DNA of 40,800 nucleotides, from NCBI GenBank assembly GCA_009926405.1, contig RFOZ01000003.1:1-40800 (forward strand). The letters run 5' to 3'. Within the stretch, counting starts at the first letter, position 1; every line of letters starts with the position of its first letter. The notes beneath the pieces were generated by a model. The model was not told the origin of the DNA and made no database searches. It worked only from the letters and a program-made list of their open reading frames with translations. Below, one piece after another: positions 811-33,269 of this stretch. Both the position numbers and the translations under genes were made by a program. Origin of the DNA: Cytophagia bacterium. Lineage in GTDB: Bacteria; Bacteroidota; Bacteroidia; UBA7662.

Positions 811-2436
811 TCAACCCTGAAACGGGTAAGGGTACGTGGTCGGGGGGCATAGGTTCTCTTTGATGGTGCGAGCCGAAACCCAGCGCAACAAATTGAGGGA
901 AGAACCGGCTTTGTCGTTCGTGCCGCTGGCTCTGGCTCCGCCAAAGGGTTGTTGTCCAACCACGGCCCCGGTTGGTTTGTCGTTCAGGTAAAAATTACCC
1001 GCTGCATGGCGCAATTTGGTGGTAGCCAAATCAAGGGCATAGCGGTCCGAGGCCAAAACGGCACCGGTCAACGCATAGGGCGAGGTGTTGTTGCATAAAT
1101 CCAATACCTCCTCGTAACGGTCTGCAGGATAAACATAAACGGTGAGGACCGGCCCAAAAAGCTCCTCGCACATCGTCCTGTATTTGGGATTGGTTGTTTG
1201 TATCAACGTAGGTTGTACAAAATATCCTTGGGACTTGTCACATCCGCCCCCGATCAGGACTTCGCAATCAGGATGATGTTTGGCCTCTTCGATAGCTGCA
1301 TGCAATTTATCAAAGGACTTTTCGTCAATCACAGCGTTGATGAAGTTACTAAAATCTTCGACACCGCCCATTTTCATGTGTTGCAAATCAGCCCGGACCC
1401 TTTCCAATACCTCAGGCCATAACACATCCGGAACATAGGCTCTGGAGGCTGCGGAACATTTTTGACCCTGGTACTCAAAGGCTCCCCGTGACAATGCGGT
1501 GGCTACCACATCGGCAGAGGCCGAAGCATGGGCTACAACAAAGTCCTTGCCACCGGTCTCCCCCACAATGCGCGGGTAGGACTTGTACAATCCGATGTTA
1601 CGACCAATTTGTTCCCAAATTTGATTGAAGACACCGGAGGAGCCCGTGAAGTGTATCCCTGCAAAATCAGGATGTTTGAAGATCACATCCCCGGCAATCG
1701 GCCCGGGAACTGGAACCATGTTAATCACACCGTCCGGTAGACCTGCCTCTTTAAACAAACGCATGAGCCAATAAGCAGAATAAACCTGGGTATTGGCCGG
1801 CTTCCAAACAACCGTATTACCCATTAAAGCCGCCGCGCAGGGAAGGTTGGCGGCAATGGAGGTAAAATTGAAGGGAGTCAGGGCAAAAACAAAGCCCTCC
1901 AAGGGGCGGTACTCCACCCGGTTCCAAGAGCCCGGCAAACTCTCGGGCTGTTGGCGATAAATCTCGGTCATGAACCGCACGTTGAAGCGGAAGAAATCAA
2001 TCAATTCGCAAGCCGCATCAATCTCGGCCTGGTAGGGATTTTTGCTTTGCCCTAACATGGTGGCCGCATTAATCAAATCCCGGTAGGGACCCGCGAGCAA
2101 ATCCGCCATTCTCAAGAAAACAGCCGCCCGTTGTTCCCAAGGCAAAGCCTCCCATGCTGGCTTGGCCGCAAGAGCCGCATCAATCGCCTCTTCGACGTGT
2201 TCAGCAGAACCCTCGTGAAAATAGCCCAAGGTATGGGCATGGTCGTGGGGTGGTGCCATGCGCCGGGTTTGTTTGCTATGCACCTCCAGACCCCCGATGA
2301 ACATGGGGACTTCCACCGTACGCGATCGCAGGTCCCGCAATGCATTCTGCAAAGACAAGGCCTCCGGTGAACCGGGGGCGTAGGAGCGAACTTTTTCGTT
2401 AACAGCGGGGGGTACCGAGAAGATTCCAAAAGACAT
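811..2436 (-). CDS. pruA: delta-1-pyrroline-5-carboxylate dehydrogenase
   Basis: 541 aa; ALDH motifs (FALTPFNFTSIAANLPCAAALMGNTVVWKPA, GETGGKDFVVAHASA, GAFEYQGQKCSAASRAYV, CEELFGPVLTVYVY) typical of P5C dehydrogenase; ATG start. Confidence 0.95.
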   Translation of the reverse strand: MSFGIFSVPPAVNEKVRSYAPGSPEALSLQNALRDLRSRTVEVPMFIGGLEVHSKQTRRMAPPHDHAHTLGYFHEGSAEHVEEAIDAALAAKPAWEALPWEQRAAVFLRMADLLAGPYRDLINAATMLGQSKNPYQAEIDAACELIDFFRFNVRFMTEIYRQQPESLPGSWNRVEYRPLEGFVFALTPFNFTSIAANLPCAAALMGNTVVWKPANTQVYSAYWLMRLFKEAGLPDGVINMVPVPGPIAGDVIFKHPDFAGIHFTGSSGVFNQIWEQIGRNIGLYKSYPRIVGETGGKDFVVAHASASADVVATALSRGAFEYQGQKCSAASRAYVPDVLWPEVLERVRADLQHMKMGGVEDFSNFINAVIDEKSFDKLHAAIEEAKHHPDCEVLIGGGCDKSQGYFVQPTLIQTTNPKYRTMCEELFGPVLTVYVYPADRYEEVLDLCNNTSPYALTGAVLASDRYALDLATTKLRHAAGNFYLNDKPTGAVVGQQPFGGARASGTNDKAGSSLNLLRWVSARTIKENLCPPTTYPYPFQG

Positions 2437-2453
2437 ACACGATATTTAGACCC

Positions 2454-2461
2454 CAAAGGTA
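2454..2461 (-). promoter_or_regulatory. putative Bacteroidota -7 box (TACCTTTG) for pruA
   Basis: Minus strand reads TACCTTTG (TAnnTTTG consensus) about 17 nt before the pruA ATG; -33 element not convincing. Confidence 0.4.
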
Positions 2462-2473
2462 CGAATCCACCCC

Positions 2474-2830
2474 ATGAACCTTGAAAGCCTGCGCGATCTT
2501 TGCCTCGGCCTGCCTGATAGCACCGAGGACCTCCCTTTTGACGAAAACACCTTGGTCTTCAGGGTAATGGGCAAAATATTTGTGCTGACCGATTTAGTGA
2601 AATCCGATCGATTCAACGCCAAATGCGACCCAAACTGGGCGCTTGAATTAAGGGAACGCTATCCCAGCGACATTCTGCCCGGGTACCACATGAACAAAAA
2701 GCATTGGAACACCGTCCTCATGGAGGGACGAATACCCCACCCTTTGTTAGAAGCCATGGTACGGCACGCCCATGCCTTGGTTCATCCGGACTATCGAAAA
2801 AGGTCCGGGGATTTTATCCAGGAACCATGA
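2474..2830 (+). CDS. MmcQ/YjbR family protein
   Basis: 118 aa; MNLESLRDLCLGLPDSTEDLPFDENTLVFRVMGKIFVL...GYHMNKKHWNTVLMEG pattern of the YjbR/MmcQ (CyaY-fold) family. Confidence 0.88.
   Translation: MNLESLRDLCLGLPDSTEDLPFDENTLVFRVMGKIFVLTDLVKSDRFNAKCDPNWALELRERYPSDILPGYHMNKKHWNTVLMEGRIPHPLLEAMVRHAHALVHPDYRKRSGDFIQEP

Positions 2831-25366: not shown

Positions 25367-25368
<2 letters not shown>
25361..25368 (-). promoter_or_regulatory. strong Shine-Dalgarno-like sequence (AAGGAGGT) before atpF
   Basis: Minus strand CTAAGGAGGTCTCCATGGAC; AAGGAGGT overlaps the atpE stop codon, 4 nt before the atpF ATG. Confidence 0.6.
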
Positions 25369-25627
<259 letters not shown>

Positions 25628-25632
25628 TCAAA

Positions 25633-26736
25633 TCAATGGTGTTCATTGGGCTCTGGTTCGGCTGTTGCTAAACCGATAAACAAAGCACTGAGAAGGGTAA
25701 AAACATAAGCCTGTAAGACTGCTACCAGCATTTCGAGGCACTCCATAAAAAGCACAAAAGCCAAAGAAACCGGCGCCATGGCCATGCTTTTGAAGATAAA
25801 AATCAGGGAGATAAGACTGAGAATAATGATGTGCCCTGCCGTGATGTTCGCAAACAAACGTATGGTTAACGCGATAGGCTTGGAGATAATGCCCACCAAT
25901 TCTACAGGAACCATGATGGGATACAACCAAAGGGGTACATGGGGTTTGAAAATATGCCCCCAATAATGTTTGTTACCACTCCAATTGGTGATGACCATCG
26001 TAAAGACCGCAAGCACCAGAGATACGGCAATATTGCCGGTCAAATTGGCCCCTGTCGGAAGCAAGCCCAACAAATTGTTAATCCAAATGAAGAAAAAAGC
26101 CGTTAACAAATACGGCATGTAGCGCTGATAGCGATGTTCGCCAATGTTGGGTCTGGCGATATCATCCCTCACAAAGAGGATAATAGGTTCCAAAAATCGA
26201 GCCATTCCACCGGGGAGGCGTTGTTCGGAGCGGGTGTAGGAACGAGCAACGGACCCAAAAATCAATACCAGCAGGACGACGCTGATAAGCATGGAGGCCA
26301 CATTTTTGGTGATAGAAAAATCCAGTACCCGAAGACCGGAAGCCTCCGAAATATGTCCATGCTCGTCCATTTGAAAGGTTAGACCCTTGGAAACAGGGCG
26401 GGCATGGCCATGATCAAAGGCCGATGACATCATCGTGTGAAGGGTGCCTTGGCACCACAAAAGAACAGGAAGCGGAATCGAAACCGGATGGATCATCCCC
26501 TCCGCATCGGTGTGATCGTACAGATGCCAATCGTGGGCGTCGGCGATGTGATGCAGAATGACTTTGGAGGGATCAAACGTTTGTTCTTCGGCGGTATCCA
26601 CGGATGTATGCCCACCCATGTTTTGGGGTTCAACAGGGGTACCGGCCCATGCAGGACGAGGACCCGAGGTTACCAACCACAAGCCCAGGATACTCAGGCA
26701 AAGGGAAAAACCGCGGACTACTGAACAATGACGCAT
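25633..26736 (-). CDS. atpB: ATP synthase Fo subunit a with signal peptide and long extracytoplasmic N-terminal region
   Basis: IWINNLLGLLPTGANLTGNIAVSLVLAV...SKPIALTIRLFANITAGHIIILSLISLIF; start set to MRHCSVVRGFSLCLSILGLWLV (ATG 26736). Confidence 0.95.
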   Translation of the reverse strand: MRHCSVVRGFSLCLSILGLWLVTSGPRPAWAGTPVEPQNMGGHTSVDTAEEQTFDPSKVILHHIADAHDWHLYDHTDAEGMIHPVSIPLPVLLWCQGTLHTMMSSAFDHGHARPVSKGLTFQMDEHGHISEASGLRVLDFSITKNVASMLISVVLLVLIFGSVARSYTRSEQRLPGGMARFLEPIILFVRDDIARPNIGEHRYQRYMPYLLTAFFFIWINNLLGLLPTGANLTGNIAVSLVLAVFTMVITNWSGNKHYWGHIFKPHVPLWLYPIMVPVELVGIISKPIALTIRLFANITAGHIIILSLISLIFIFKSMAMAPVSLAFVLFMECLEMLVAVLQAYVFTLLSALFIGLATAEPEPNEHH

Positions 26737-26793
26737 GGAAGTTGGTGCAATAAAGGGCCTTTGGGCATGAATCAAGGCCGATTTGACCTGATT

Positions 26794-27174
26794 TCAATGC
26801 GGGCGCAAGATAGAGACCAAGGCCCGATTTACAAAAGCCAAATCAAGCAGAATCAAGGCGACCAAAACCAAGGCATCGGGTTTGGATTCCAACACACCCA
26901 AGGATCGAGCCACCAGGATAGCCAAAAGGTTCAAAAGCAGATGAACAAAAGGCAATGGGAAGGCCCACGCCGGGTTCTTTGAAGAACGAAGGGAAAGAGC
27001 GTAAATGCAGAGGAGATACAAAGCATTGACAAAACTCATGAGGGTCCACGTCGTCCACCAGGTTCGCAATCCGGTTTCGCCACAAAAACCTACCAAGGGA
27101 TAAGCAGCGGCCAGCACACTGTGCAGGGCCACAAATCCTAGAAACCAGGACCAAAAAACCGAAAAACGTGCCAA
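26794..27174 (-). CDS. small polytopic membrane protein, AtpI-like by position
   Basis: 126 aa, about four hydrophobic segments; TTG start directly abutting the AtpZ-like stop (TGA|TTG); between AtpZ-like gene and atpB. Confidence 0.6.
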   Translation of the reverse strand: MARFSVFWSWFLGFVALHSVLAAAYPLVGFCGETGLRTWWTTWTLMSFVNALYLLCIYALSLRSSKNPAWAFPLPFVHLLLNLLAILVARSLGVLESKPDALVLVALILLDLAFVNRALVSILRPH

Positions 27175-27375
27175 TCAACGGTCTTTAAGACGGGACCAAA
27201 CCCCTGCAAAGGCCATCACGAGGCCTAGCAACAGCCCCAAAAGAGTCCAATAAGGTTTGGCACTCCCCTGTCGATGGTCCATTCGAGAGCCCAGCCAGGC
27301 CCCTATTGCGATTGGCAAGGCCATTTGTACGGCCAATCCTCCGTAACGGGCCAGGCCTTCAAGCCGTTTTGGCAT
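27175..27375 (-). CDS. AtpZ/AtpI family protein
   Basis: MPKRLEGLARYGGLAVQMALPIAIGAWLGSRMDHRQGSAKPYWTLLGLLLGLVMAFAGVW; two TMs; start ATG 27375 inside the bactofilin 3' end. Confidence 0.8.
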   Translation of the reverse strand: MPKRLEGLARYGGLAVQMALPIAIGAWLGSRMDHRQGSAKPYWTLLGLLLGLVMAFAGVWSRLKDR

Positions 27376-27757
27376 GAGCATCACCGGCATAGACCGGACG
27401 CAAGGCCTGCATCGTGCAGCGCCCGGACAACTGAGCCCCTTCCTCAACCACCAACTTGGGAGCAGAAATGTCCCCGGTCACCTGGGCTGTTGCTGACAAC
27501 AAAATGGATTCGGTTGCCTCTATCGGACCGTTAACCTTGCCCAAAACATGAACATTTTGACAACGCACCGGCCCATGGATGGAACCTTGGGCCCCGATAA
27601 CCAGCCGGCCTTCGATTTTTACTTCCCCTTGAACGGTTCCATCCAAACGCAGGTCTCCTTTGCAGGACAAATTGCCTTCCAAAACAGCCCCTTCGGCCAT
27701 GGCATTCATGACAACGCCGGTTGCACGGCCTAGTTTAAGCGGTAATTGCATGTTCAT
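27359..27757 (-). CDS. bactofilin (polymer-forming cytoskeletal protein)
   Basis: AEGAVLEGNLSCKGDLRLDGTVQGEVKIEGRLVIGAQGSIHGPVRCQNVHVLGKVNGPIEATESILLSATAQVTGDISAPKLVVEEGAQLSGRCTM, repeated beta-helical pattern. Confidence 0.95.
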   Translation of the reverse strand: MNMQLPLKLGRATGVVMNAMAEGAVLEGNLSCKGDLRLDGTVQGEVKIEGRLVIGAQGSIHGPVRCQNVHVLGKVNGPIEATESILLSATAQVTGDISAPKLVVEEGAQLSGRCTMQALRPVYAGDAHAKTA

Positions 27758-27772
27758 TGAGCAAATTTAAGG

Positions 27773-28264
27773 TTAACCCCTGGCCTTTCGGTTGGCAAAT
27801 TCCTTTTCAACTTCCAAGCGAAGCAAGGAATCAGCCCATCCACTGGGATCCAGCAAGCTATCTGGGTGATAATTCTGTCCCACCGTCGGTAGCGGTAGGT
27901 CTTGGTACAGCAAAGAATCTTCACCCAACCACTCCATTCTCAAAACAGACCATTGGTTCCGACTGGTTTGGAGATGCTCTTCGAGCGAATCGAGGCGTCG
28001 GGTCTGTTCCACGACTTGTCGCTGCCAATCCCGGTTCGCAGAACCCGGCATATAACCCCCCAACGGCGTGTACAAAAGGAGGGCCCCAAAAAAAAGCCAG
28101 CCCAGGACTAATACGGTGCTAAGCAGGAAAAACCAATTGAGCGGTCGAAGCCGAATATTCACTATGGCATCCAATTCGCCTTCGGTGCGAACAATAATCC
28201 GGTAATCCAAGCGCATTTTTCGCCAGAAACGGAGGAAGCGAGGACCGAAACGCAGGAATTTCAT
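27773..28264 (-). CDS. membrane protein resembling the N-terminal half of Bacteroidota M23 metallopeptidases but lacking the peptidase domain
   Basis: 163 aa: basic cytoplasmic N-terminus (LDYRIIVRTEGELDAIVNIRLRPLNWF), one TM, PLGGYMPGSANRDWQRQVVEQTRRLDSLEEHL coiled-coil-like region, ends ...DSLLRLEVEKEFANRKARG*; no HxxxD/HxH M23 motifs. Confidence 0.75.
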   Translation of the reverse strand: MKFLRFGPRFLRFWRKMRLDYRIIVRTEGELDAIVNIRLRPLNWFFLLSTVLVLGWLFFGALLLYTPLGGYMPGSANRDWQRQVVEQTRRLDSLEEHLQTSRNQWSVLRMEWLGEDSLLYQDLPLPTVGQNYHPDSLLDPSGWADSLLRLEVEKEFANRKARG

Positions 28265-28318: not shown

Positions 28319-31042
28319 ATGCGCCACCCGGACCCCCGCTCGTTGATCTCCTCCCCGCCTCCGCGGGTCTTTATCGGTATGGTGTATCGATTTGGATGCA
28401 GCATTGTGGGGGCTGGACGTTGGCAGGCGTTAGGAATCATGGTCTTGGTCGCAACCCTGTGCGTTGGAAAACCCGCCCAAGCGCAGAGTTGGGCCAAACG
28501 CCAATACCAAAACCTAACAGCCCGATTCAATGGCTTGTACTACGCCCGCTTGCGTTACGATGAAGCAATGCAAGAAATCCATCGAAACCACAAAGACGAT
28601 TATGCCCAATGGCTCCCGGTCTTTGTCGAATCCTTGGATGCCTCGGTTGCTTCAGGAAATTCAGCCTTTGAAGAATCCATCAAAAAATGTTCCAACCTGA
28701 TTCAACGCAAGGAACACAGCCGCTGGGTGGACGATGGATTCTTGCTTATCGGGCAATGTTATTATTTGAGGCGAGAATATTTCGACGCCATCGAGACCTT
28801 TCAATATGTTATCAAACGCTACAAGGGCCAACCCAACGCGGACCATGCCGCCGCTTGGTTGGTTCGATCGTATACCGCATCCGGTCAATACGGGCCAGCC
28901 CAGGGCGTCTTTGAAAGGGCCCTTGAAAACCCCAAGGCGGGGGCCCGCAGCCGAGCGATGCTCTACTTGGCGGCAGCCGAATGCCAATTGGCCCAAAAAC
29001 GCCCGGTCAAAGCGGCCGAATACCTCGAAGACGCTCTGCAATACCCCATGGCAGCCGCCCAACGCCGAAGAACGCATTTTTTGTTAGGGCAGATTTATCT
29101 ACAGATTGAAAGCCGCAAAGCCCCGATCCATTTTCAAAAAGCACTGCGTGGACGACCCGATCCCGAACTCCGTTTCCAATGCAAAATCAAATCCGTCACG
29201 GCTTTCACCGATGCTCGCAGCGGGGCCCGCAATGCCCGACGCATCCTTAACAACTTAATCAATTCCAAAAAGTACTTTGCCTACCGCGATGTCCTTTATT
29301 TTGAATTAGCCCTGCTTGACCGAGCCGACAAAAAAAAGCTAGATGCCGAAAAAAACCTTCGACAATCACTAGCTTATTCCTTGGAAATCAACGCCCAACG
29401 CAAAAAAACATGGCTGGCCCTGGCCGATGCCTGCTTTGAGCAAAAACGATACGAAGAGGCCCGGATTTTTTACGATAGTTTGAGCTCCAATATTGACAAA
29501 GAATACCCCCGCTTCAAAGAAATCCGTAACAAACAAGCTTACCTAGGCGAAATGGTTCGCCACTTAAATACCATCGAGGTTCAGGATTCATTGTTGGAAC
29601 TGGGTGCCTTACCCGAAAATAAATTAACCACGCGGCTTACCAAAATTCTGGACGAGGAGCGCAAGGAGGCCGCCCGTATCAAAGCCAAAGCCGAAGATTC
29701 AGCCAAAACAGCTCGCTCCGCCTCCAACACCAACCAGTGGGTCGATCCACTCCTACTTCAGCGTACCATGAACAATTCAACGGTAGCATCAGCGGGTGGG
29801 GATTGGCATTTTTACAACAACCAACTAATAGGCAGCGATTACAACCAGTTTTTGCAAATCTGGGGCAAACGGGCCAACGCCGATCATTGGAGGCGATCCG
29901 CCGGAAACCAAAACACGATGGAAGAAGGTCCGATAGGAATCAACCCTGCTTCGGTCGATTCCGAGGAGGACCCCCTAATGGACTCCCTCAACAAACTCCC
30001 ACGGACGGTCGAAAACCTGATGTTACGAATACCCCGGGACGAGGCCTCACGAAACAAGGCTTTGGCCGCCATCCGCAAGGCCCACCTAGCCCTTGCCCGC
30101 CTCTACAAAGATCGCTTTGGTGACTACCGAGCTGCGCTCCCCTGGGTGGAAAATCACCTGGAACGCTTTCCGGGCAGTTCGACGGAACCCGAAGTTTTGT
30201 ACCAAGCTTTTCGTTGTTACGAAGGCCTGGATCGCCGTGATCGTCGGGATCAAAGCGCCCGCCTCCTGGATAGCTTATACCCTGAATCACCCTTCACGGC
30301 CATGATTCATGGCAAAAGCCCTGCAAACTCCGATTCAATGCGCATGGCCGCTGAAACCCATTACCGTCGTTGTTACCAACTCTACAGGGCGGGCCGCTAC
30401 GACTCGGTGGTCTACGAATGCAAATGGGCCAAATCCCGCTTTGGCTCCGATACTTTGATGCCTTACTTTGGGTTTTTGGAAAGTGTTTCTGCTTCCCGCA
30501 AAGACAGCACCCTGCTCTTCCAAAGTTTGGAGTCCTATGCCAGCCAAACAGCCCAGCCATCCATTGCCTACGCTGCCCAATCCATGCTGGATGCCTTGTT
30601 CCCTCAAAAATCCAAGGCAAGAGCCGGGAGTGGCCAGGCCGATGAAACAGGCCGGGTCAAAGACCGCTACGAATTCAAAGGGGATACCATGCAACCTCAC
30701 TACCTTGTGTTACGAATGAACGCTTCTGTTTACCAAAAAAACATAGAGATTGGGGTCAAATTGAGCCGCTTCGCCGAAAAAAATTATCGTCGGCTTGGTG
30801 TCAAAATCTCCTACCCCATCTACCGGGAAGTGGAGCAATTGGTCCTCGTGAAAGAAGCTCCCGACCGTCTCATCGCGCTTCAATTCTGGCAACAAGCCAA
30901 AAACGATTCCGAACTTTTCAGGGATCTCCCTGCCGGTTCCTACGATTGGTTCTATGTTGCTCGCGATGATTTTAACAAGCTATACAAAAACCTATCGCTC
31001 AACGATTACTTGATCTTGTTCCAACGGGAACACCAACCCTGA
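28319..31042 (+). CDS. large TPR protein, probable PorW/SprE-like type IX secretion/gliding component
   Basis: 907 aa; ARFNGLYYARLRYDEAMQEIHRNHKDDYAQWLPVF...SIKKCSNLIQRKEHSRWVDDGFLLIGQCYYLRREYFDAIETFQYVIKRYKGQP: TPR pattern like PorW/SprE; genomic context (bactofilin/atp neighbours). Confidence 0.65.
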   Translation: MRHPDPRSLISSPPPRVFIGMVYRFGCSIVGAGRWQALGIMVLVATLCVGKPAQAQSWAKRQYQNLTARFNGLYYARLRYDEAMQEIHRNHKDDYAQWLPVFVESLDASVASGNSAFEESIKKCSNLIQRKEHSRWVDDGFLLIGQCYYLRREYFDAIETFQYVIKRYKGQPNADHAAAWLVRSYTASGQYGPAQGVFERALENPKAGARSRAMLYLAAAECQLAQKRPVKAAEYLEDALQYPMAAAQRRRTHFLLGQIYLQIESRKAPIHFQKALRGRPDPELRFQCKIKSVTAFTDARSGARNARRILNNLINSKKYFAYRDVLYFELALLDRADKKKLDAEKNLRQSLAYSLEINAQRKKTWLALADACFEQKRYEEARIFYDSLSSNIDKEYPRFKEIRNKQAYLGEMVRHLNTIEVQDSLLELGALPENKLTTRLTKILDEERKEAARIKAKAEDSAKTARSASNTNQWVDPLLLQRTMNNSTVASAGGDWHFYNNQLIGSDYNQFLQIWGKRANADHWRRSAGNQNTMEEGPIGINPASVDSEEDPLMDSLNKLPRTVENLMLRIPRDEASRNKALAAIRKAHLALARLYKDRFGDYRAALPWVENHLERFPGSSTEPEVLYQAFRCYEGLDRRDRRDQSARLLDSLYPESPFTAMIHGKSPANSDSMRMAAETHYRRCYQLYRAGRYDSVVYECKWAKSRFGSDTLMPYFGFLESVSASRKDSTLLFQSLESYASQTAQPSIAYAAQSMLDALFPQKSKARAGSGQADETGRVKDRYEFKGDTMQPHYLVLRMNASVYQKNIEIGVKLSRFAEKNYRRLGVKISYPIYREVEQLVLVKEAPDRLIALQFWQQAKNDSELFRDLPAGSYDWFYVARDDFNKLYKNLSLNDYLILFQREHQP

Positions 31043-31046
31043 GCCT

Positions 31047-33269
31047 ATGCCTTCGCCAACGCCCATCGAAAAAACCCCCAACCAAACCCCGTCCTGGACC
31101 CGCAAAGTATGGGGAATTTACCTTGCTTTGTTGGCCATCGGCTTTGGGATTTTGTTCCTGACGGCAGCCGGCGGACTGGGGGAAATGCCCTCCTTTGAGG
31201 ATCTCGAAAACCCCAAAAGCAATCTTGCGACCGAAATTATTGCTTCCGATGGGCAAGTCATCGGTAAATTTTATCTTCAAAACCGATCCTACACCAAGTT
31301 TCATGAAATATCACCGCATGTGATTCATGCGTTGTTGGCGACGGAAGATGTTCGCTTCTATCGACATTCGGGGATTGACCTTCGGGCCCTCTTACGGGCG
31401 GTGGTTTTTATGGGGCGCGAAGGTGGTGCATCCACCATCACCCAACAATTAGCCCTCAATCTTTTTAACGGACAGCGTGCTCGTTCCAAGCCGGCCCGTC
31501 TACTCCAAAAGGTCAAGGAATGGATCATTGCCGTCCAACTCGAAAAGCGTTATACCAAACAAGAAATCCTGGCCATGTACCTCAACACGGTGGAATTTGG
31601 TTACAACTCCTTTGGAATCAGCGCAGCATCGCGCACCTACTTTGATAAAGATGTGAGCTCGTTGGATGTCCACGAGGCTTCGCTTTTGGTGGGCCTGCTC
31701 AAAGGCATCACTTTTTATTCTCCGGTTCGCCATCCGGATCGATGCATCAACCGCCGAAACACCGTCATCGGGCAAATGGTCAAATACCGTTTCCTGGACC
31801 AAGAGGTCGGGGATCGCTACAGCGCCATGCCCCTGTCCTTGAGGCTCCGACCCCAATCGCATGCTGCTGGCACCGCCACGTATTTCAGGGAATACCTGCG
31901 TCAAGAACTCAGTGAATGGATCAAAACCCAAGTCAATCCAGAGGGAGAACCTTACAACCTGTACCGGGACGGTCTCAAAATTTACACCACCTTGGATTCC
32001 CGAATGCAATCCTACGCCGAAGAAGCGGTGCGAACCCAAATGAAATCCTTGCAAGCCCTGTTTGACGAGCATTGGAAAGGCCAGGACCCCTGGGGCGAGT
32101 TCACCGATATCCTGGACCAGGGAATGCGTCGCTCCAAACGATACCGAAGGCTCAAGGATCTGGATTGGTCGGAGTCGGCCATCCGCAGGCACTTTGACGA
32201 ACCCACGGATATCAGGCTCTTTACCTGGAAAGGTTTTGTGGATACCTTGATGACACCGATGGATTCCATTCGATACGCCAAAAAATTCCTGCATACCGGA
32301 TTTATGGCGATGGATCCCCACAACGGCCATATCAAAGCCTGGGTAGGTGGCATCGATATGGATTTCAGTCAATACGACCATGTCAACACCCAGGCGAAAA
32401 GACAAGTCGGATCTGCTTTCAAGCCCTTGGTATATACGGTGGCCGTGGACAATGGTTTTGATCCCTGCTTACCCATTCCCAACCTACCTGTCACCTTCGA
32501 AGCCTTTGAAAATTGGACCCCTAAGAATTACGACGGCAAGATTGGCGGTTCCATGAGCATGTTCCGGGGGCTTGCTCTTTCGATTAACAACATCGTGGCC
32601 TATCTGATGAAGCAAGTGGGGCCCGAACCGGTCCTCGAACTGAGCCGCAAAATGGGCATCACATCGCCCATGGAGCCCTATCCCAGCCTATGCTTGGGGA
32701 GTTTTGATATGAGTGTCTATGAAATGGTTGGGGCCTACGCCACCTATCCCAACCAGGGTGTTTGGACCAAACCCATGATGATTACACGCATCACCGACCG
32801 GCAGGGCAATGTTCTGATGGAGAATTTTCCCGAAACCAAGGATGTCTTGAGTGAAGAGACCGCCTATGTCATGACTAAACTTTTACAAAAAGTCGTGGAC
32901 GGGGGAACAGCCTCTCGCCTTCGGTACCGTTACAACTTAACAGGAGATTTGGCAGGCAAAACCGGTACCACCCAAAACAATTCAGACGGCTGGTTCATCG
33001 GCTTTCATCCGAATTTGGTTGCCGGCGCGTGGGTGGGAGCGGATGATCGAGCGGTGCATTTTCGGAGCACCAGCTTGGGCGGTGGAGCCAATACCGCTTT
33101 GCCCATTTTTGGGCTTTTTATGCAAAAGGTTTACGGGGACAGCCGTTTGGGTATCAAACCGGCAAGCTTCAAAGCACCTGATGGAGGAATCTCCATCAAC
33201 ATGGATTGCTCGGGGTATGCGTACGAAAAAGCCCAGGACGAAGATACCTGGGGCGATGCCGCCGACTAG
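31047..33269 (+). CDS. penicillin-binding protein 1A (transglycosylase/transpeptidase)
   Basis: ATEDVRFYRHSGIDLRALLRA, GGASTITQQLALNLF, KRYTKQEILAMYLNTVEFGYNSFGI, RQVGSAFKPLVYTVAVDNG, LAGKTGTTQNNSDGWFIGFHP. Confidence 0.97.
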   Translation: MPSPTPIEKTPNQTPSWTRKVWGIYLALLAIGFGILFLTAAGGLGEMPSFEDLENPKSNLATEIIASDGQVIGKFYLQNRSYTKFHEISPHVIHALLATEDVRFYRHSGIDLRALLRAVVFMGREGGASTITQQLALNLFNGQRARSKPARLLQKVKEWIIAVQLEKRYTKQEILAMYLNTVEFGYNSFGISAASRTYFDKDVSSLDVHEASLLVGLLKGITFYSPVRHPDRCINRRNTVIGQMVKYRFLDQEVGDRYSAMPLSLRLRPQSHAAGTATYFREYLRQELSEWIKTQVNPEGEPYNLYRDGLKIYTTLDSRMQSYAEEAVRTQMKSLQALFDEHWKGQDPWGEFTDILDQGMRRSKRYRRLKDLDWSESAIRRHFDEPTDIRLFTWKGFVDTLMTPMDSIRYAKKFLHTGFMAMDPHNGHIKAWVGGIDMDFSQYDHVNTQAKRQVGSAFKPLVYTVAVDNGFDPCLPIPNLPVTFEAFENWTPKNYDGKIGGSMSMFRGLALSINNIVAYLMKQVGPEPVLELSRKMGITSPMEPYPSLCLGSFDMSVYEMVGAYATYPNQGVWTKPMMITRITDRQGNVLMENFPETKDVLSEETAYVMTKLLQKVVDGGTASRLRYRYNLTGDLAGKTGTTQNNSDGWFIGFHPNLVAGAWVGADDRAVHFRSTSLGGGANTALPIFGLFMQKVYGDSRLGIKPASFKAPDGGISINMDCSGYAYEKAQDEDTWGDAAD

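Follow-up and report, generated by a model that had tools for sequence, protein, structure and literature searches.

The window, that is, the whole 40,800-nucleotide stretch analysed here, corresponds to contig C19 in a draft genome of 1.24 Mb, 78% complete. On its minus strand an open reading frame (ORF; 27773..28264) encodes a 163-aa membrane protein that, on the evidence of the ORF itself, homology, a structural model and dN/dS, we describe as peptidase-less and LmdC-like. It is followed on the same strand, 15 nt after its stop, by a gene for a 132-aa bactofilin (27359..27757; PF04519, E = 1.1e-28, 99.8 bits against a cut-off of 27.9). The coordinates confirm the preliminary description, which had paired the two genes and held that no hidden peptidase remnant separates them: the 15 nt between the stop and the bactofilin start leave no room for an M23 remnant. 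Downstream on the minus strand lie a 90-aa ORF of the AtpZ-like F0F1 ATPase gene 1 type (27175..27447; PF09527, E = 3.9e-14), whose likely start near 27375 would make it overlap the bactofilin stop, a 126-aa membrane-protein ORF (26794..27174) between atpZ and atpB, with a counterpart at the equivalent place in genome G019 and weak ones in G014, G015 and G016, and, by sequence reading, atpB for ATP synthase subunit a (25633..26775) and the remaining atp genes. The divergent neighbour on the plus strand encodes the type IX secretion lipoprotein PorW/SprE (28319..31042; NF052312, 448 bits, cut-off 250), and a divergent porW beside the M23 or short gene is conserved in several families. Beyond it lies a penicillin-binding protein 1A (PBP1A)-type synthase gene (31047..33269, plus strand), identified by reading the sequence only; the order porW then PBP1A-type gene is common to the window and two loci of family f5. 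A literature search pairing bactofilin with PorW found nothing. Both in the window (25367-28264) and at loci L164-L174, the M23 or short gene and the bactofilin gene head the atp operon, and bactofilin lies near atpB in other classes too, a conserved association between genes of the cytoskeleton and of ATP synthase.

In what follows, g1 denotes the window's genus, g2, g3 and g4 other genera of its family, and f2 and f3 families of the same order. In profile and pairwise searches all 163 residues aligned with the N-terminal half of M23 proteins, 283-314 aa long, that sister genera encode at this locus, with 208 bits (E = 4.7e-62) against an N-terminal profile of which the window protein is itself part, and with an independent pairwise E of 2.6e-16 against an M23-bearing relative. 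Homologues were found in 15 of the 21 searched genomes of the window's order: all six from g1 are short (open frames of 168-180 aa), and those of g2, g3, g4 and f3 measure 283-314 aa and match PF01551 in their C-terminal part. All 16 invariant columns of the alignment (Y21, R22, L39, S49, T66, P67, L68, Y71, P73, G74, D92, S93, E95, D145, S146 and L148) lie in the half that the window protein has in common with its M23-bearing relatives, and the protein carries the conserved YR-L-TPLxxYxPG-DSLE pattern. It is therefore an M23 protein minus its M23 domain, which bears out the earlier proposal that the ORF stops where the peptidase domain would begin. The caveat that a frameshift or assembly deletion might have removed a real M23 domain is ruled out by the five other g1 genomes holding the locus, each of which carries the short form of the gene in this position, adjoining bactofilin.

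The protein consists of a possibly hairpin-like cytoplasmic segment, YRIIVRTEGELDAIVNIRLRP (residues ~1-40), a transmembrane (TM) stretch (~41-65), the motif TPLGGYMPG (66-74), a periplasmic helix (~76-112) and a tail ending DSLLRLEVEKEF. The most constant motif of the family, TPLxxYxPG, lies in the periplasm immediately next to the TM. The AlphaFold model (pTM 0.28) has helices at 41-65 and 76-112, i.e. a single TM and a helical periplasmic linker, and shows the cytoplasmic segment as a weak, low-confidence hairpin of two short strands (23-24 and 34-35; pLDDT about 55). The 163-aa protein matched no Pfam or NCBIfam model, PF01551 included, and neither collection yielded a family when searched over 52 members of the N-terminal family; the N-terminal half is a conserved domain for which they hold no model. 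Among solved structures, the search returned no relative, only chance coiled-coil matches.

The five catalytic positions (H, D, H and HxH) were placed on a profile alignment of the M23 domains in which a few rows are one contig duplicated under another name. The pentad reads HDHHH in 104 rows from other families, a count that describes these rows and is no test of them, as they also seeded the profile. In the window's order the catalytic positions are broken in all nine M23-bearing relatives, with all five replaced in g2 (SEKTS), g3 (YGQQE, QGGQE or VGQQE) and g4 (KGRNE), and four of the five in f3 (FDNKR). Outside this order, broken pentads occur only in the Flavobacterium genomes G104 and G310 (FKNTR) and in the f14 genome G258 (PNHQH). 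Purifying selection still acts on these dead domains (dN/dS about 0.04-0.13). Because the pentad is gone in all nine relatives, hydrolysis ended in this order before the M23 domain was deleted; the orthologous loci, suggested earlier as a means of dating the loss, place catalytic death ahead of deletion, and the domain would have passed stepwise from active to dead to absent.

The N-terminal profile, run against 297 Bacteroidota genomes, detected a homologue in 114. Short forms occur in g1, in f5 wherever a homologue exists (129-145 aa) and in the majority of g11 (165-192 aa), and they persist across whole families; truncation points differ, the f5 proteins stopping before the position reached in g1 and g11. 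Judged from these distributions, loss of the M23 domain is not a one-off, as it also affected f5 and Flavobacterium: F. saliperosum (L229) and F. enshiense (L240), both with the short form, group within the g11 clade (SH-aLRT 100), and two Flavobacterium species retain the dead-M23 intermediate. (The G150 contig is from Zeaxanthinibacter enoshimensis, and family f7 is therefore Flavobacteriaceae.) Since g1 and g11 are each nested among M23-bearing members of their families and f5 is a third family, the peptidase-less form arose independently at least three times, in g1, f5 and Flavobacterium. The gene tree requires four changes for the label 'lost'; as its placement of g1 beside distant outgroups is probably long-branch attraction, the g1 loss was counted from taxonomy and not from the tree. 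An intact M23 protein is the ancestral form across Bacteroidota; outgroup classes encode it next to bactofilin and the atp operon.

How closely is the N-terminal protein tied to bactofilin? The order M23-bactofilin-atpB is likely to be the ancestral arrangement, since other classes of the phylum have it too (L164-L174). Bactofilin is present in 109 of the 114 carriers of the N-terminal protein versus 79 of the 183 non-carriers (Fisher 8e-23, a value that ignores relatedness), and in f2 both are absent and porW is present, a real co-absence. An apparent co-loss of bactofilin and short gene in G012, G013 and G018 was withdrawn as an assembly gap in which the whole atp locus is missing, since atpB is gone as well and, in G018, the contig breaks off within porW. 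Exceptions exist: two f5 genomes that are 100% complete, G146 and G170 (L134 and L139), keep the short gene, bactofilin being absent from both the locus and the genome search; G198, G250 and G258 have the long form, and bactofilin was not found in them; and in Flavobacteriaceae the two genes lie apart. The preliminary description had cast the 163-aa protein as a possible dedicated, non-hydrolytic bactofilin partner. A non-hydrolytic partner is still its most likely role, but exclusive dedication to bactofilin is weakened by G146 and G170 and by Flavobacterium, where the genes are not adjacent. The g1 bactofilin itself starts with MNMxLPLKLGR (27700-27757 in the window) in place of the MF-x-K-like start common at other Bacteroidota loci, and its membrane-targeting peptide may have changed; we rejected such a change as a general cause of the losses, as f5 short-form genomes keep the usual MF-x-K.

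The pairing of bactofilin with an M23 protein is usually explained as a scaffold targeting a hydrolase. In LmdC, a bactofilin-linked M23 endopeptidase studied in Hyphomonas neptunium and Rhodospirillum rubrum, residues 1-38 bind the bactofilin BacA with a KD of ~15 μM, and residues 1-80 (hairpin plus TM) are recruited by bactofilin, the hairpin being required (PMC10945521). LmdC and the 163-aa protein are alike in having a gene directly upstream of bactofilin, a short cytoplasmic segment, one TM and a helical periplasmic linker; LmdC has an M23 domain and catalysis, whereas the 163-aa protein has neither. By analogy with LmdC, residues 1-45 may bind bactofilin. The retained part is equivalent to the bactofilin-binding LmdC segment in topology, but no connection emerges at the level of sequence profiles: alphaproteobacterial LmdC-like proteins encoded upstream of bactofilin have a similar-looking segment, QRLFLKSDKTTRFLRLRP, before the TM, and hhalign of the cytoplasmic segment against five such sequences gave a probability of 0.85%, no better than controls. 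The M23 protein of the Bacteroidota bactofilin/atp locus (283-353 aa) is homologous along all 163 residues and has the same locus and neighbours, but keeps the M23 domain, intact in most families and dead in the window's order, two Flavobacterium species and one f14 genome. In Helicobacter pylori, Csd2 (an inactive relative of the hydrolase Csd1), Csd5 and Csd7 are non-enzymatic partners in the shape complex of the bactofilin CcmA (PMC9507126). We liken the 163-aa protein to them in its proposed role, as non-enzymatic membrane proteins around a bactofilin, Csd2 differing in that it retains an M23-like domain. Non-enzymatic bactofilin partners are thus already known; the variant described here, a bactofilin-M23 pair that lacks the peptidase, is conserved and has evolved repeatedly. 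Finally, PbpC, a Caulobacter relative of PBP1A, is a client of the bactofilin BacA, and its membrane anchor in excess can substitute for the bactofilin membrane-targeting peptide (PMC12448750). PbpC is bitopic, binds bactofilin through a cytoplasmic tail and can help membrane retention, a role the 163-aa protein might play likewise; PbpC has a large periplasmic synthase, and the 163-aa protein only a short helical stub.

As the best explanation, the gene descends from one for an LmdC-like, membrane-anchored M23 peptidase, which much of Bacteroidota encodes beside bactofilin where the atp operon begins. Within the window's order its M23 domain first lost the catalytic residues, yielding a pseudopeptidase on which purifying selection still acts; in g1 the dead domain was then deleted, leaving the hairpin-like cytoplasmic segment, one TM helix, the TPLxxYxPG motif and the short periplasmic helix. 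The cytoplasmic segment would bind the bactofilin polymer and the TM hold it at the inner membrane; the periplasmic stub might provide a contact point for further envelope proteins. We give this explanation as a whole a probability of about 0.65. That the short protein is most likely a bitopic bactofilin partner or anchor we infer from its keeping the LmdC-equivalent part and from the ability of membrane-bound clients to help hold bactofilin. Homology, catalytic decay, selection on the dead domains and on the short gene, repeated losses, the M23-bactofilin-atp order, co-occurrence, co-absence in f2 and the LmdC and PbpC literature count in favour of a bactofilin partner; G146 and G170, the separation in Flavobacteriaceae, the hhalign result, the weak hairpin, the disregard of phylogeny in the co-occurrence and the assembly gap in G012, G013 and G018 count against it.

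Progressive loss of parts could also mark a vestigial gene nearing disappearance. This is very improbable and contradicted by the selection data: within g1, the measurable pairs give a dN/dS of 0.04-0.16 for the short gene, with a single exception at 0.198 where dS is close to saturation, the gene is maintained, the reading frame is kept in six genomes of the genus, and short forms run through whole families. Nor is it at all probable that, as the preliminary description had considered, the M23 domain moved to another gene and now acts in trans with the short protein. Several M23 proteins do exist in g1, but, judged by protein size, their classes are also present in the sister genera, where the dead M23 occurs in addition, and searching g1 for M23 revealed no obvious extra stand-alone class; with the domain dead in nine of nine relatives, and so before its loss, we rejected the move as unnecessary. 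The incomplete draft genome of the window itself encodes two M23 proteins on one further contig, a 412-aa protein in which HxH reads HLC (L001, G000:C17, ORF 1399-2634, minus strand) and a 434-aa EnvC-like protein whose motif is degenerate (L002, ORF 1480-2781, minus strand), neither of which looks intact.

A more serious, if still unlikely, contender is that the conserved function of the retained half is something other than bactofilin binding: it would serve the neighbouring PorW/PBP1A, or some other wall complex, as a scaffold in the membrane or periplasm, bactofilin being a frequent but dispensable neighbour. This would accommodate the short gene persisting without bactofilin in G146 and G170, its distance from bactofilin in Flavobacteriaceae, the periplasmic position of the most constant motif, the divergent porW of several families and the PBP1A gene that follows porW both in the window and at two loci of f5; it fits poorly with bactofilin in 109 of the 114 carriers, with a shared gene order conserved even in other classes and with the LmdC precedent for the cytoplasmic segment. 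Selection on the dead M23 domains, the DSLLR-E tail kept in g1 and the non-enzymatic M23 homologue Csd2 in the bactofilin-linked complex of H. pylori (PMC9507126) could instead point to a pseudopeptidase regulator, with an ancestral dead M23 domain that activated or recruited another wall enzyme, in the manner of EnvC or Csd2, and a short form that keeps the recruiting linker (the periplasmic helix and DSLLRxEVE tail). We consider this distinctly improbable: the f5 short forms end earlier and lack the DSLLR tail, which is therefore not generally required.

Returning to the bactofilin partner, the non-enzymatic half has been retained repeatedly after the enzyme was inactivated, which suggests that it has a function of its own, probably that of holding bactofilin at the membrane. 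One could go further and speculate, tentatively, that the enzyme half was repeatedly switched off and discarded to leave a minimal transmembrane bactofilin clamp, which in g1 may replace membrane attachment through MF-x-K. Flavobacterium can be cultured and genetic tools exist for it; since this genus carries the natural separation-of-function form, the question is open to genetic testing. As a minor observation, one public metagenome-assembled genome of g1 (L175, VHBD01000060.1) is titled Sphingomonadales; its contig carries porW and this bactofilin locus, both of Bacteroidota type, and the genome is probably mislabelled.
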